64,000 nt of DNA from Pseudomonas sp. ERMR1:02 (lineage in GTDB: Bacteria > Pseudomonadota > Gammaproteobacteria > Pseudomonadales > Pseudomonadaceae), in contig NZ_NKJI01000022.1 of the NCBI RefSeq assembly GCF_002277815.1, positions 1-64,000 on the forward strand, in the 5' to 3' direction. How positions within the stretch are numbered: position 1 is the stretch's first letter; each line of letters opens with the position of its first letter. Below the pieces are notes generated by a model. The model did not search any database and was not told the DNA's origin. It worked only from the letters and a program-made list of their open reading frames with translations. Made by a program: the position numbers and the translations under genes. Below are positions 21,349 to 56,195 of the stretch, piece after piece.

Positions 21349-21819
21349 ATGAGAAGCACCGATCAACCGGACGCCTTTAACCTGCAACGCTTTATCCAGG
21401 CGCAAGACGCGGTGTTCGACCGTGTTCAGGCCGAACTCAATGCCGGCCACAAGCGCAGTCACTGGATGTGGTTCGTCTTTCCACAGTTCGCCGGGCTGGG
21501 TGACAGCGAAATGTCCCGACGGTACGCGATCCGCACCCGCGAAGAAGCACAGGCCTACCTTGAGCACCCCTTGTTGGGTGCCCGGTTGCGCACCTGCACC
21601 CAGGAAGTGCTGAACACCCAGCAGCGTTCGGTGGCGGCGATTTTCGGCCATCCGGACGACCTGAAATTTCATTCATCGATGACCCTGTTCGCCCAGGTCG
21701 CCTCGGACGACAGTCCATTTCATCAAGCCCTGAACCGGTATTTTCACGGCATTCTGGACGACTGGACGTTGTCGCTGCTGGACTCAAAACAAGCCCAGTT
21801 GCCCCCCAATCAGCGTTGA
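21349..21819 (+). CDS. DUF1810 family protein
   Basis: A 156-residue protein with the DUF1810 core: FNLQRFIQAQDAVFDRVQAE, then HWMWFVFPQFAGLG, and a C-terminal HQALNRYFHGILDDWTLSLL. The family is mainly helical with no established role. Its 3' end overlaps the 3' end of the convergent polB gene by 36 bp. Confidence 0.87.
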   Translation: MRSTDQPDAFNLQRFIQAQDAVFDRVQAELNAGHKRSHWMWFVFPQFAGLGDSEMSRRYAIRTREEAQAYLEHPLLGARLRTCTQEVLNTQQRSVAAIFGHPDDLKFHSSMTLFAQVASDDSPFHQALNRYFHGILDDWTLSLLDSKQAQLPPNQR

Positions 21820-24142
21820 GAAGTCGTCATCGACAAACGGCAGGATCGCATCCGCCACCGGTTGCAGTTGCTTGGTGATGTAGTGATCGTAATCGATGGT
21901 GCGCTACGGGTTTCCAGCGGCTCGGGGCCGGCGACGCTGATCACGTAGCTGATCCAGCCACCGTTCTGGTACTGCCGCGGACGGCCCTGCCGGTCGTTGT
22001 AATCGTCGGCGATGCGCGCCGCCCGCACATGAGGCGGGACGTTGCGCTGGTAGTCGTCGAGCGTGCGGCGAAGGCGCTTGCGGTAAATCAGGCGCTCGTC
22101 GAATTCGCCGGCCAGGGTCTTGGCCACGTAGTCGCGCACGTAGTCTTGATAAGGCTTGCGCTGGAAGATTCGCAGGTACAGCTCCTGCTGGAATTGCCGG
22201 GCCAGTGGCGACCAGTCGGTACGCACGGTTTCCAGGCCTTTGTAGATCATCTCGTCAGTGCCATCGGCGCGAGTGACCAGCCCCGCATAACGCTTCTTGC
22301 TGCCCTCCTCCGCACCGCGAATGGTCGGCATCAGGAAACGCTTGTAGTGAGTTTCGTACTGCAACTCCAAGGCACTCTCCAGCCCATACTCTTGACGCAC
22401 GTGCTCGCGCCACCACTGGTTGACGTGATCCACCAAAGCTTTGCCGATCTGCGCGGCTTCCTGTTGGCCGTGGCGCGACGCAGCCAGACGAAGGTCGAGT
22501 CGGTGTCGCCATAAATCACTGTGTGTCCCTGAGCCTCGATCAACTGGCGGGTGCGCAGCATGATTTCATGGCCGCGCAAGGTAATGGACGACGCCAGACG
22601 CGTATCGAAAAAACGGCAGCCGCTGGAGCCGAGGACACCGTAGAACGCGTTCATGATGATCTTCAGTGCCTGGGACAGCGGCGCATTGTGCTCGCGCTTG
22701 GCGGTTTCCCGGCCTTCGGCGACCCGGGCAACGATGGAGGGCAGGCAATGCCGGGTGCGGGAAAACCGTGCCCCGCGAAAGCCCGGCACCGAGTCGGCGT
22801 TGTCTGGATGCCTGAGACCTTCGATCAGGCCCACCGGGTCGATGAGGAACGTGCGGATGATCGAGGGGTAGAGGCTCTTGTAGTCGAACACCAGCACCGA
22901 TTCGTACAGCCCCGGTTGCGAATCCATGACAAAACCGCCAGGGCTGGCTTGCGGCGGACGCCCGCCGAGGTTTGGCGCGACGAAACCCTGACGATGCATT
23001 AACGGCATGTAGAGGTGAGTGAACGCCGCCACCGAACCGCCCATGCGATCGGCCGGCAGACCGGTGACACTGGCCCGCTCAAGTAAAAAAGTCAGCAACT
23101 GGGTCTGGGCGAAGATCCGCGTGACCAGCTCACAGTCCTTGAGGTTGTACTTGGCCAGCGCCGGTTTGTCCTCGGCGAACATACGGTTGATTTCGTCCAT
23201 GCGCTGGTAGGGTTGTCGATGGACTTGCCCTCGCCGAGCAGGGTTTGCGCGACGTTTTCCAGGCTGAACGAGGGAAGCTCCAGGTCGCCGAACGCAGGGC
23301 TTCGATGCCGTCGATGATCAGCCGGCCGGCGGCGGATGCAAAGTAATGGTTGCCGTTACCATGTTCACGCCACTGCATTTCCTCACCGCCACGCCCCAGT
23401 TTCAACGGCACGCCCAGGCGCCGGGCGTGTTCGTGCAACACCCGCAGGTCGAACTGCACAACGTTCCAGCCGATGAGCGCGTCGGGGTCATGCCGGGCGA
23501 ACCAGTCGTTGAGTTTTTTCAGCAGCAGGGTTCGCGACTCGCAGTATTCGAGCTGGAAATCCACCTGGCTGTCGTCGCCATTAGGCGGCCCGAGCATATA
23601 CACCTGACGCTCGCCGCAGCCTTCGAGCGCGATGGAGTACAAATCGCCCTGGGCAGTGGTTTCGATGTCCAGCGACACCAGTCTTAGGTTCGGCCGATAG
23701 TCAGGGTCGGGTTTCATCTGCGCGTCGAGCAACAGCCCTCGGCACCCGGCGTGCCGCCAAAACGCACCGGCGCGGTGATGAAGCGCTCCATCATGTAGCG
23801 TTCCGGCGGGCGCACGTCGGCTTCGTACACTTCGACACCGGCCCGGCGCAGCGCGCTCTCAAGACGCATCAACTGGCCGTGCTGCCGGCAATACAGACCG
23901 AGCACCGGGCGGTGCTCGAAATCCTCAAGGGCCAGGGTGCGCAGCTCGACGTTTTTTTCGTCGTGCAACAGCGTCTCGGCCTGCTCGCGCTGACAGGCCG
24001 GAATGAACGCCACCGACGGCTGATGAGGCAGGCGAATGCGCCGGGGACCGCTGTCGGTCGCCAGCCAGAACTCGACTTCCGTACCCGCCGGGGTATCGCG
24101 CCAATGCCGGGTCAGGACGAAGCCCTGGGGTAAATCCACCAC
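21784..24142 (-). CDS. polB: DNA polymerase II, family B (five frameshifts)
   Basis: 787 residues after repair, close to the 783 of E. coli Pol II. The exonuclease domain holds VSLDIETT (ExoI) and GWNVVQFDL (ExoII). The polymerase domain holds FDYKSLYPSII (motif A), KIIMNAFYGVLGSSGCRFFD (motif B) and VIYGDTDSTFVWL (motif C). Frame is lost near 23737, 23272, 23213, 22482 and 21902, each time at a C or G run that is one base short. The stop is TGA at 21784-21786 after IGGQLGLF. Tandem GTG starts at 24142/24139. The enzyme is an SOS-induced repair polymerase that restarts stalled forks; no LexA box was verified here. Confidence 0.92.
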
Positions 24143-24955: not shown

Positions 24956-24996
24956 GGGTTTGGGGTGTTCCGCCGGGACAGTGCCATTTTGGGTGT

Positions 24997-25620
24997 TCAG
25001 GCGGGCCAATGCCGGGCAAAGACCGGTGCCAGTGTCGGATGTCGGTCGATGCGTTCCAGCCAAGCGGAAAAGCCCGGTCGGGTGCGGCGCAAATGCTCCC
25101 GGCTCCCCGCCCACCGCGTGATCACCGCCGCCAGAACGTCCAGCGCGCCTGGTGTCTCGTCATCCAGATACAGCTCTGCCGAAAACTGATCGGCAAACAC
25201 TTCCCAACTCCAATGCAGCCGCGCTCGGCTGCCGGCCATGAGGTTTTGCCGCGAAGCTTCATCCCCTTCGGCCAGCCAGCGTTCCGGGTAATCGATGACG
25301 CCAATGGCGCTGTAACAATTGCTGACGATATAGACCAGGCCGCGTATGGCCTGGTCGCGGTCGGCAGGGTTGTCCGGCAGCAGGTTCGACTCGGGAAACG
25401 TCAGCCCGAGGTGAATCAGGATTGCCGCGCTCTCGGTCAGGATGCTGCCGTCAGGCAATTGCAGCGTCGGGATCTGCTTGAGTGGATTGAGCTTGTGTAA
25501 ATCCTGAGCCGCTTCGGCAGACGCCTCGACATCGATGAAGCGAAAGGGAACCGCGCACAGCACAAGTGCAGCCTCAATCGCCGCGGCGCCAGAGTTTTGA
25601 TAACCGTAAAGCTGGTACAT
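24997..25620 (-). CDS. Glutathione S-transferase
   Basis: A 207-residue cytosolic GST. The N-terminal thioredoxin-like domain is YQLYGYQNSGAAAIEAALVL, with NPLKQIPTLQLPDGSILTES as the glutathione-contact cis-Pro and TES region, and a helical C-terminal domain follows. The start after GGAGG at 25620 is clear. The substrate is unknown. The gene stands alone. Confidence 0.87.
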   Translation of the reverse strand: MYQLYGYQNSGAAAIEAALVLCAVPFRFIDVEASAEAAQDLHKLNPLKQIPTLQLPDGSILTESAAILIHLGLTFPESNLLPDNPADRDQAIRGLVYIVSNCYSAIGVIDYPERWLAEGDEASRQNLMAGSRARLHWSWEVFADQFSAELYLDDETPGALDVLAAVITRWAGSREHLRRTRPGFSAWLERIDRHPTLAPVFARHWPA

Positions 25621-25838
25621 GCACACCTCCTTGCTGACTGCGCAGCTAACCAGTGTAGAAGCAGCCACCGACCGCGCCTTGGCGATCCGACGACCGCATC
25701 ATTACGCTCACTATGCGTAGGCCACGCGCCCTATCAATGCCGTCGATGTTCACAATCACGTCAATGAAGTTCTCTTAAAAATCCTGCGGCGTAACATCTG
25801 CTCCATACCAACTGATAACACCCCCGGAGCACATGATC

Positions 25839-26243
25839 ATGAAACGCCAAACCATCCTCAGCATCGCTTTCTCGGTTTTCGCAGTTAACGCTTTCGCCGC
25901 TACCTCTGCTCAACCAGTAGTCGCTGAAGGCGGCTCGGATCGTCTGATCGAAAGCCGTGTGGCTGAAGGTGGTTCGGATCGTCTGATCCAGAATCGTGTG
26001 GCTGAAGGCGGTTCTGATCGCCTGCTCGAAAAACGCGCTGTTGCTGCTGATGGTTCTGATCACCTGCAAGGCAACACCGTTGCTGCCGATGGTTCTGACC
26101 ACCTGAAAGGCAACACCGTTGCATCTGATGGTTCTGACCACCTGCAAGGCAACACCGTCGCTGCCGATGGCTCCGACCACCTGCAAGGCAACACCGTCGC
26201 TGCCGATGGCTCCGACCACCTGCACGGCAACACCGTCGCATAA
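25839..26243 (+). CDS. Secreted protein of eight 13-residue tandem repeats
   Basis: A 134-residue protein with a signal peptide (KRQTILSIAFSVFAVNAFAA) and then almost nothing but repeats: three copies of VAEGGSDRLIxxR and five copies of VAADGSDHLQGNT, ending VA. Each unit has an Asp/Glu-Gly-Ser-Asp core, which could form calcium-binding or amyloid-like turns; that is inference. GGAG nine bases before the 25839 ATG supports this start over 25833. It is monocistronic with a shared terminator after it. I do not know a function for this family. Confidence 0.75.
   Translation: MKRQTILSIAFSVFAVNAFAATSAQPVVAEGGSDRLIESRVAEGGSDRLIQNRVAEGGSDRLLEKRAVAADGSDHLQGNTVAADGSDHLKGNTVASDGSDHLQGNTVAADGSDHLQGNTVAADGSDHLHGNTVA
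25920..26234 (+). repeat. Eight in-frame 39-bp tandem repeats
   Basis: Repeats start at 25920, 25959, 25998, 26040, 26079, 26118, 26157 and 26196; one extra codon separates copies 3 and 4. Copies 7 and 8 differ by one base. The first three form one sequence class and the last five another, which points to separate expansions. The array lies inside the secreted repeat protein. Confidence 0.92.
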
Positions 26244-26270
26244 ACAAATCGCTTTAGCGCAGCACCCAAC

Positions 26271-26301
26271 AAAAAGCCCGGCCTGATCAGCCGGGCTTTT
26301 T
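26271..26301. terminator. Bidirectional terminator between the repeat protein and the DUF1615 gene
   Basis: AAAAAGCCCGGC / GCCGGGCTTTTT with a seven-base loop works for both convergent genes, with T runs on each strand. Confidence 0.9.
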
Positions 26302-53446: not shown

Positions 53447-54936
53447 CTACTCATGCCACGCAGCGTGATAGCGTGCCGCCCGCCAGAGGTTTTTCGATTC
53501 TTCTGTCAGATGGCGCAAGCCGCTACGGTCCAGCATGCGTTCCGACTCCTCTTGCACCGCAGCCAGCACAGCAGCCTCGTCGACGGCGCCTACGACGTAG
53601 TCTTCCATCAGGATCTTGCCATCGACAATGGTCGTACACACGTCCCCGCCGTTGGCGAAACAAGTGACACGGTGGATCGGCATGTTCATCGGCATCAGGT
53701 GAGGTTTGAACAGGTCGATCAGAATGATGTCAGCTTTCTTGCCGACTTCCAGCGAGCCGATCTCATGTTCCATCGACAGTGCCTTGGCGGCGTCGATAGT
53801 GACCATTTCCAGCACTTTGCCCTGCGGCAGGATGTCCGGGTCTCGGAAATGGCGGCGGTGGTAGTGCATGCATTGGAACATGTGGCGGAACATGTCATAA
53901 CCGCGGTCTGGGGCGGCGCCGTCGGAACCGAGGGCGACGGTTACATTGGCCTCGATCAGTTCCGGTACCGGGCAGCGACCCAGAATCGACATGATGGCGC
54001 TCGGGTTATGCACGATCTTGGTCTGTGTCTCGCGGCACAGGGCGATGTCTTCCGAGGTCAGGTCAATGCAATGCGACATGAAGGATGTCGGGCCGAGCAG
54101 GCCCAGTTCGCGGTGGGCCAGCGCCAGCGTACCGGCGCGGTGGCCATCCTGGGTAAACGTAAGGCCGTAGCGGTGGGCCAGCGCCAGATAATCCTGTGCT
54201 TGCTGGCGGAACAGAGGTGCCAGCTCCCGATGGCTGGGCTCGTATTGCGGCGCGTACACCGGCAACGTGATGGCAATGCGCACCCGGCCGTCCCCATACC
54301 GTCGCAGCTCCTGGCGATTTCTTCGCAGGCCTCGAACATGGTCTCAAAATTGACGTCGCGCCGGGTGGGCGGTTCGGTCGACCAGTCCAGGTAAGTGCGC
54401 GGCGCTGGCGGCCGGGACGGCCCAACGGCCACCACCGAGCGGGTACCGATTTCGGCGATAGCCTGGGCGTGGCGTTGCGCGTAAATCGGGTCGTCGACGC
54501 GCATGATCGAATCGCCGCCGCCCAATAGCGACACGCCGGTGGTGGTGCCGCATTTCAGCCGCTCCAGTGCCGACAACCTGGCCTCAACCTCCCAGAACTC
54601 GACTCCGGAGGCCGAGGTGTAGATGGTCTGGCAAGCCTGCGTCCAGGCATCGCCCTCCCCGCCGCCGATGGTTTTGAGCATCGCGTGGCCGGCATGGGCG
54701 TGGCTGTCGATCAAGCCTGGCAGCACCGCCTTGTTGCGTGCATCAATGATTTTTTCAGCAGTGAAGCGCGCCCGCAGTTCATCCGTGCGCCCCACCGCTA
54801 CGATGCGGTTGCCAAGCACGGCCACTGCGCCGTCCTGAATTACCCGCCGTTGGTCGTCCACGGTGATGACCACGCCGTGCTCGATCAGCAGGTCTGCTTT
54901 GTTGAGGGGGGCGTTCGCGTCGTACTGATGTGTCAT
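53447..54936 (-). CDS. Amidohydrolase family deaminase, AtzB/TrzA-like (frameshift near 54293)
   Basis: 496 residues after restoring one G. It carries VLPGLIDSHAHAGHAM (metal-binding HxH), a middle His in SFMSHCIDLT, and VALGSDGAAPDRGYDMFRHM with the catalytic Asp, then ALSMEHEIGSLEVGKKADII. This is the Zn-dependent chlorohydrolase/deaminase branch that includes AtzB, TrzA and 8-oxoguanine deaminases. It is last in the transporter-hydrolase operon, 62 bp after the second amidohydrolase. The substrate is not assigned. Confidence 0.84.
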
Positions 54937-54998
54937 ACAAGGCATCCGATTCAGGCTGGGGGGCAGTTTGAGAAACATCTGTGGGCACGTGTTTTGAG

Positions 54999-56195
54999 TC
55001 ACAAGCGGCTCTGGAGCAGACTGCCATTTTTCGCCACGACGATTCCGCGGCTGATCACCGTCCGCGCTAGCGGACGAGCCACAACCGCTTCACTGAGTGT
55101 CTCTGCAGGCAGCAACAATAGGTTGGCTGTTTGCCCCGTTGCCAATCCGTAATCACTTCGCCCAAGTGCCCGAGCCCCATTGCTGGCAGCCGCTTCGAAC
55201 GCTGCGCAGATTTCAGCGTCCGTTCTCATGCCGCAGCGAAACGCGAGCAGCATCGCGCGTTCAAGCATGTCGCCATTGCCCATCGGGGTCCATGCGTCCC
55301 GGATGCCATCTGAACCGAGGCAGACGTTTACCCCAGCGCAGAGCAGTTCGGCAAAGGGTGGTATGGCAATATCAGCTGGCGCCGTGGTCATGAGTGAAAT
55401 TCGATTGGCAGCCAACCGTTCAGCCAACGGGAGCACTTGAGCCCAGTTCTTCATGCCCAGGCAAAAGGCATGGCTGATCATGACTCGCCCCTGACGCTGA
55501 TAGCGCTCTGTGAAGTCGATGATGCGAGCAATCTGCCAGAGCCCTAGCTCCCCACTGTCATGCAGGTGGATATCGATACCGCGATCAAACTTGTCCGCGA
55601 GCTCGAACAGGATGGAGAGGTGCGCGATTGGGTCGTTGTCTATGCCGCAAGGGTCCAACCCCCCCACTACCTCCACCCCAACTCCAAGGCTTCTCGCATC
55701 AATGCCTCTACCCAGGGCGGTTGACCAGGCCGACTTGAGGGAAGGTGACGAACTCGATATCAACCAGGTCGGCGTAGCGTTCGCGCAGCTCCAACATGGC
55801 TTGCACATGCTTGATACCCAACTCCGGATCGGCATCTACATGACAACGAAACATCAGTGAGCCGCGAGCGATGCATTGCTCCAGCAGAGCACCCCCGCGC
55901 TCTGCAATGGGTGATTTGAGCTCTCGCAGGATTTGGCGCTCATTCGATATGCGCGCTTTAAGCGTTGGGCCTGCACTGTGCGGCCGCCACGGTTGTCCCC
56001 ATAGGGTCTTATCCAGATGAATGTGGCTTTCTACCAGGGACGGAACGAGTAATTGACCTTGCCCATCAAGGTCAGAGTCATCGACTGGATTGCCACTGGC
56101 TGGCTGACGATCGCCGATACGACTATCAATAATCTGTATGTCTTCAACTTCGCCGCCATAGGGCGGACATTACGCAACCAGAACGATTTGATCAT
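54999..56195 (-). CDS. Cytosine deaminase/AtzC-like amidohydrolase (three frameshifts)
   Basis: 399 residues after three repairs (near 56158, 55716 and 55683). The metal motif is in LVESHIHLDKTLWGQ; DIHLHDSGELGLWQIARI carries the active-site Glu region, ISHAFCLG the His, and CLGSDGIRDAWTPMGNGDML the catalytic Asp. The family removes amino groups from cytosine, N-isopropylammelide and similar rings. It lies 78 bp after the ABC ATPase and is transcribed with it and with the following amidohydrolase, so one compound may be imported and attacked twice. Confidence 0.82.

Follow-up and report, generated by a model that had tools for sequence, protein, structure and literature searches.

The gene at 25833/25839-26243 on the forward strand of the window, by which we mean the whole 64,000-nucleotide stretch of Pseudomonas sp. 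ERMR1:02 DNA analysed here, encodes a small secreted protein made of 13-residue repeats, and belongs to a many-copy family that we call family A. The promoters of this family make control by a LysR-type activator a well-supported prediction, with MexT as the best candidate for that activator. In P. aeruginosa, MexEF-OprN, a pump for electrophile and redox stress, is under the control of MexT. We lean towards the reading that the product is a MexT-type, electrophile- or redox-stress-inducible secreted protein whose interchangeable units act additively. In a literature search run mostly without subscription papers, we recognised no description of this family; a search for the unit motif returned one unrelated cyanobacterial paper, and a search for 'PtrA N-terminal domain' returned none.

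The coding sequence of 134 amino acids (25839..26243, +) was defined from the open reading frame, its translation and the family alignments. The ATG at 25839 (MKRQ...) is the likely start codon, since GGAG lies 9 nt ahead of it and the ATG at 25833 is absent from most of the other copies compared. This Shine-Dalgarno GGAG (25826..25829, +) is conserved in the upstream alignment. The signal peptide MKRQTILSIAFSVFAVNAFA (25839..25898, +), read by eye and conserved across the family copies, is probably cleaved by signal peptidase I after AFA. The translated sequence continues with three E-type units of the VAEGGSDRL type, VAEGGSDRLIESR, VAEGGSDRLIQNR and VAEGGSDRLLEKR (25920..26036, +), one additional Ala codon between the unit types (26037-26039, +), and five D-type units VA(A/S)DGSDHL(Q/K/H)GNT (26040..26234, +), and the protein ends with Val-Ala. 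The first-pass annotation had correctly described a signal peptide and eight 13-residue units in two types, three and five in number; its statement that nothing but repeats follows the signal peptide holds for most of the protein, the exceptions being ATSAQPV before the first unit and the single Ala between the types. Tandem Repeats Finder gave a period of 39 with zero indels and scored the two arrays 157 and 303. The identity of adjacent units is, in order, 32, 31, 26, 36, 35, 33 and 38 of 39 bases, so that the last two units are indeed nearly identical (38/39), and the expansion by 39 bp in frame with a recent duplication, as first proposed, is supported.

The mature protein is hydrophilic and acidic, and the complete absence of Cys, Met and aromatic residues makes it no obvious thiol scavenger. 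By charge and hydropathy it lies near the order/disorder line, with family members on either side. Behind the gene stands an intrinsic terminator, AAAAAGCCCGGC-CTGATCA-GCCGGGCTTTTT (26271..26301, +); the end first assigned to the feature, 26301, is that of this hairpin, and the coding sequence stops at 26243. A glutathione S-transferase (GST) gene and a DUF1615 gene flank the repeat gene. Both are on the opposite strand, and the repeat gene thus appears to be transcribed alone. An Rfam search of the locus gave zero matches at the gathering score.

The source genome holds four near-identical family A copies, namely the window gene with 8 units and three paralogues on contig C18 with 3, 5 and 9 (the motif counter scores the second of these 4 instead of 5, as one unit reads EGCAD). 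It also holds two other forms: subfamily B on contig C24, a divergent relative, and subfamily C on contig C6, an array at a greater distance. Of 199 genus genomes, the source genome counted, 191 carry a relative of some subfamily. Matches came from 54 of the 148 genomes of a family-level draw, spread over 10 of its 19 genera, and from 7 of the 299 genomes of a phylum-level draw, all within the own genus. Among the matches listed in a scan of named records, all 78 best loci retained carry Pseudomonas titles. A plasmid-borne nature of the gene was rejected, a single record, of P. asturiensis, giving a distant match. We parsed 116 repeat genes and excluded two of subfamily B, which left 114 family A copies. 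Comparison of their flanks placed the copies at 15 shared sites and 35 single ones. Insertion by a mobile element was rejected as an explanation, from the flank comparison only, as sites are common to different species.

The unit is conserved and the number of units is not. At the window's own site, 21 flank-matched copies from across species carry between 3 and 10 units; over the 109 family A copies without X among the 114, arrays range from 3 to 21 units with a median of 8, by a motif count that misses a few degenerate units. This agrees with the expectation that repeat number varies, seen also in the 3, 5, 8 and 9 units of the four copies of this genome, the comparison being one of different species and paralogues. 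Array length may be misread in some short-read assemblies; variation is seen in near-complete genomes too, however, and the copies on a 6.5-Mb contig of G128 carry 9 or 10 units. The spacing between units is exactly 13 residues in 754 of 779 cases. Exactly one acidic residue occupies positions 3 and 4 in 921 of 925 units, position 7 is Asp in 922 and position 8 is basic in 924. The last two figures are partly required by the search motif, yet both positions are genuinely conserved, since only 3 of the 779 spacings skip a unit. Within arrays, pN/pS is 0.25, the value for the window array being 0.41; first units compared between genes give 0.11. The 13-residue unit is under purifying selection; selection preserves the unit and leaves array length free.

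Sequence exchange between paralogues is likely, and only partly shown by the comparisons. Central-unit identity averages 86% for 60 pairs of copies at separate sites in a single genome, against 74% at the same site in different genomes (290 pairs) and 71% for all other pairs, and none of 2000 label shuffles reached 86%, the means being uncontrolled for species distance. These averages cover the 100 of 114 family A copies with at least 5 readable units and no X; genome labels were assigned by hand in the exchange comparisons, and in a few cases a numbered genome and a named one may be identical. In a matched test of 44 copies, the nearest paralogue was more similar than the nearest orthologue at the same site for 22, and less similar for the other 22. 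The window array itself has an identity of 0.897 to its P. moorei orthologue and 0.894 to a paralogue. Given a sample of close species, orthologues would be expected to come out ahead almost every time if no exchange took place, which makes exchange likely but partial. Strong homogenisation between paralogues was rejected, as the averages are not decisive and the matched comparison splits evenly. The copy of G088 at the window's site is one clear case of exchange: its promoter is of the type found in its three paralogues, and not of the type carried by 18 of the site's 21 copies, two others being unclassified.

Upstream of the start codon, conservation extends over about 105 bp and little farther out, as seen in the 107 upstream regions left after removal of near-duplicates. 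In the window, this stretch holds a consensus match to a LysR-type (MexT-like) operator, ATCA-N5-GTCGAT-N4-ACAAT (25733..25756, +). The available part of a published account, which purified MexT from P. poae, gives ATYA-N7-YGAT as the MexT nod-box consensus (PMC11432991), and ATCA-ATGCCGT-CGAT (25733-25747, +) fits it exactly. The block TCAATGAAGTTCTCTTAAAA that follows (25761..25780, +) is strongly conserved in the 107-region alignment and is probably the activation site and a weak -35; at up to 3 mismatches, it has 6 sites in the genome, 4 of them in family A. Farther on lies the -10-like TAACAT (25792..25797, +), whose hexamer we infer from the upstream alignment. The distance from the centre of the nod-box dyad to the first base of this hexamer is 52 nt in 102 of the 103 copies measured, which would place the dyad centre about 64 bp upstream of the predicted transcription start. 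LysR activators usually bind about 64 bp before the transcription start. A sigma-70 scan of the locus gave zero promoters on the + strand, and this absence fits an activator-dependent promoter.

Operator counts were made on 110 copies with 150 clean upstream bases, whose promoters are related by descent and are not independent. A relaxed operator (at most 1 mismatch) begins 102-107 nt before the ATG in 105 of them and 114 nt before it in two more. The nod box fits exactly in 49 copies, with one mismatch in 39 and with two in 22, compared with 2, 40 and 355 among 2200 shuffled controls; the two-mismatch class, to which copy L002 of the source genome belongs, means little, as so many shuffled sequences reach the same level. 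A CCGGC..GCCGG hairpin lies 3' of 100 of the 114 family A copies. As read from these alignments, every copy is predicted to have its own operator and promoter, and usually its own terminator. We also observed two forms of the distal operator, variant I resembling CATTGACTGCGTCAATAG and variant II resembling CTATCAATGCCGTCGATG (for example L053 and L084), which are mostly fixed by site and look roughly reverse-complementary.

Several findings count against MexT as the regulator. In the source genome, the strict extended pattern (at most 1 mismatch) occurs at only four sites, three of which are family A promoters. The relaxed pattern occurs at 16 sites outside the family; 14 of these, under open frames of at least 215 residues, are probably due to chance, and a relaxed site at window position 53783 falls within a coding stretch. 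One non-family locus, L160 on contig C8, counts in favour of this regulator, with an operator-matrix score of 37.6, as high as in family A. A hydrophobic ORF of 30 residues follows this operator at 107 nt, and TAGGAT stands at a distance of exactly 52 nt from the centre of the dyad; the ORF overlaps an 89-residue ORF without a Pfam match, and a LysR gene adjoins, facing it. The gene (L160 1059-1524, -), with the same operator and geometry, is a candidate member of the regulon. Scoring was done with 32 non-redundant blocks (31 in a second run with a different picking order). The null of random 320-bp pieces reached 6.5 at the 95th percentile and 12.4 at the 99th, and is slightly too strict, its maximum of 38.3 coming from a pool that contained the strong L160 site.

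The same box is found before other genes as well. Subfamily B has an exact nod box in a promoter otherwise unlike that of family A. In genus g3, another genus of the Pseudomonadaceae, 3 of 6 genomes have a secreted repeat gene preceded at 110-111 nt by an exact nod box, and the encoded proteins carry 18-residue VAENGSSQ.VDRL units. The g3 repeat gene is divergent from AsmA, with TetR, ureE, ureF and ureG about 5 kb off on the other side (AsmA, TetR, UreE and UreG were identified with Pfam), and subfamily B sits directly between AsmA and TetR in the source genome. Identity between the g3 proteins and subfamily B is 28-32% by BLASTP, a weak resemblance, with uncorrected E-values of 1e-9 to 5e-13 in a five-sequence comparison; the L209 protein of G585, beside the g3 repeat gene, links the two forms. 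Also, an exact extended box stands ahead of an MFS gene (Pfam) in 4 of the 6 g3 genomes, with an ArsR-type gene between box and MFS gene in L190 (Pfam) and L195 (by eye). The subfamily B, L160 and g3 sites are the cases that depend less on common descent.

By gene order we take the place of the g3 repeat gene, near AsmA, TetR and the urease genes, to be that of PA4881, and the g3 MFS locus is presumably the PA4354 locus. In the available part of one published study, PA4881 shows a log2 change of -6.5 in a mexT mutant, the largest drop in the portion of its Table 1 at hand, and PA4354 falls by log2 3.8 (PMC12607905). The window promoter resembles those of the MexT regulon of P. aeruginosa (e.g. 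PA4881, mexEF-oprN, PA4354) in its exact nod box at the position typical for LysR regulators. It differs in that family A is a many-copy expansion, and in the family A block TCAATGAAGTTCTC, which has no near-exact match elsewhere in the source genome.

On the reading that we favour, a LysR-type activator, most likely MexT, would switch the copies on from a nod box about 64 bp upstream of the predicted transcription start, and the product would be exported by its signal peptide into the periplasm or farther. In the envelope, the units may add up to a polyvalent binder or protectant against stress; selection keeps the unit, with a single acid at position 3 or 4 followed by G-S-D-basic-L, and not the number of units. 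A constant unit whose number is left free suits a polyvalent and additive function more than a specific, enzyme-like one, and we have moderate confidence that the product is a stress-induced secreted protectant or binder. LEA-type proteins and hydrophilins are a comparison class of hydrophilic stress proteins. The family proteins resemble them in their hydrophilic short tandem units, with no Cys or aromatic residue in those checked, but the window protein has no Pfam LEA match. A wider picture, which we put forward tentatively and would not yet bet on, is that of Pseudomonas species with a genome-wide set of secreted repeat proteins under one electrophile-sensing LysR regulator, in which the unit would be kept and exchanged between sites, array length would drift or be tuned, and the product would be an additive bulk stress protein whose dose would depend both on how many gene copies there are and on how many units each holds.

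Among the genes of P. aeruginosa that depend most strongly on MexT, several are known solely by locus number. If the family is the secreted arm of this regulon, it offers work on electrophile and redox stress a concrete, many-copy product, which would also be relevant to encounters between bacteria and fungi and to strains with altered MexT. In any case, the family is a natural example of a constant repeat unit with a floating repeat number and exchange among dispersed copies.

Expression reported in other strains bears on this through a gene name. The label 'phage infection protein' denotes, as we assume, this repeat family. According to the available parts of the published accounts, a 'phage infection protein' with a predicted signal peptide is InvF-dependent in the P. 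fluorescens 2P24 transcriptome, and one in P. fluorescens In5 is up 32-fold with Rhizoctonia, together with azoreductases, pirins and a glutathionyl-hydroquinone reductase; the In5 table, in the part at hand, names no mexE, mexF or oprN. Operator scoring upstream of 6 pirin and 11 flavodoxin/azoreductase-type genes of our genome gave nothing clear, with best scores of 11.2 and 9.3 over 610 bp, which also speaks against MexT. For phage sensitivity, which the first-pass annotation named as something to check, the searches gave no support, with zero matches in 50,697 phage records and, in a scan of viral contigs, 51 candidate stretches of which 0 were confirmed.

A periplasmic metal-handling protein, in which the PtrA N-terminal motif (AEGG(S/G)DR..E..) would be tandemly expanded and would buffer copper or zinc, is the rival that fares best, and we consider it unlikely. 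NCBIfam NF041599 (PtrA N-terminal domain) scores 35.8 bits (E 5.4e-9), above the cut-off of 31, and the PtrA-type pair of the source genome (AEGGGDRTFEKM...) stands directly behind an RND transporter gene (ACR_tran by Pfam, of metal type by eye). In P. aeruginosa, PtrA is described as periplasmic and copper/zinc-induced in the accessible parts of three papers (PMC8872213, PMC8531726, PMC7744410). Yet the NF041599 score is a sum of three partial matches, the best of which covers model positions 7-30 of 46 with no full-length match among them, and the best single stretch reaches 17.4 bits in a whole-genome scan. Thus the idea that a known domain with an ordinary function might account for the protein is only half borne out: a model is matched above its cut-off, but in pieces and with no settled function. 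Seven mature proteins that we checked contain neither Cys nor Met, His stands at position 8 in only 52 of 880 units, and the two flanking genes, GST and DUF1615, are not a metal-resistance neighbourhood. The window protein shares with PtrA (NF041599, PA2808) a signal peptide followed by AEGG(S/G)DR..E; it differs in having many motif copies where each of the two PtrA-type proteins of the source genome has one, in units that each match only part of the model, and in its surroundings, the PtrA pair adjoining an RND transporter. Common ancestry of the PtrA-like motif is plausible, and we would describe the family as secreted, probably MexT-controlled proteins with a PtrA-like motif expanded into arrays. 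The PtrA-type genes in question (L049 4625-5236) are in tandem behind the transporter, and in the second of them DUF2790 is joined to a PtrA N-terminus.

We judge it improbable that the protein is an extracellular beta-solenoid, self-assembling or cation-binding, of the fibre or adhesin-like surface type. The acid-G-S-D turn is conserved, as the single acid at positions 3 and 4 shows, and AlphaFold2 predicted for a 13-unit relative strands running through the D-type units with pLDDT up to 96 per ten-residue block; four Foldseek matches have E < 0.001. However, only one of the five models of this relative is confident (75.9 vs 31-52), and AlphaFold2 confidence for the window protein itself is 46, so that the structure prediction first suggested as a check yields a beta-solenoid, and an artefact-prone one, for the relative and not for the window protein. 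Confident false beta-solenoids from perfect repeats are a known AlphaFold2 artefact, according to the available part of one report (PMC11795689), and the solenoid of this longer, near-perfect array is the sole basis for the fibres once envisaged. No Pfam family passed its cut-off with the window protein, the search leaving two sub-threshold lines at E up to 10. Likeness to left-handed beta-helix enzymes was considered and rejected: Foldseek E-values go down to 3e-4, and TM to the query is at most 0.37 among the 50 matches listed. Calcium binding by RTX-type repeats was likewise rejected. The G-S-D-x-L of the units resembles, we presume, the G-x-D-x-L half of an RTX unit, but the period is 13 and not 9, the D-type units lack the GG start, and neither nine-residue GGxGxDxLx units nor, at E up to 10, a Pfam RTX hit was found.

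Least of all do we credit the idea that the protein is a precursor yielding 13-residue peptides, or is secreted as an antimicrobial or antifungal. Of 880 units, 585 do have Arg at their boundary, and the authors of the In5 study suggest, in the available part of their paper, that small secreted proteins co-induced facing Rhizoctonia are possible antagonists (PMC5557065). But the boundary residue is Thr in 249 of the 880 units, including all five D-type units of the window, so that no common cleavage site is kept, and the flanking GST and DUF1615 genes suggest neither processing nor immunity. The MexT-type reading is the one that we retain.

Several minor observations were made on the way. A B-family DNA polymerase (by eye) at window 21810-24142 (-) is spread over four overlapping ORFs in different frames, as frameshifts or errors of assembly would cause. 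An amidohydrolase-like gene (by eye) at window 53447-55002 (-) and the AsmA gene in L010 are each split between two overlapping frames, and small indel errors in the source assembly are therefore possible. Window 24959-25013 is intergenic and holds a 28-bp sequence in two tandem copies. A third array type, at L011 3517-4356, has 13 GADHVGAK units and 15 GAD(H/R) in all, with no operator match and with neighbours resembling, by eye, chemoreceptor and histidine kinase genes. In the family A gene at L064 5498-5824, the signal peptide and first unit are duplicated within the reading frame, possibly through a failed exchange or an assembly join. In genus g3, L209 7630-8962 carries two adjacent secreted repeat genes with different units and a common C-terminal end, VAESGGDxVFDAHLKA.
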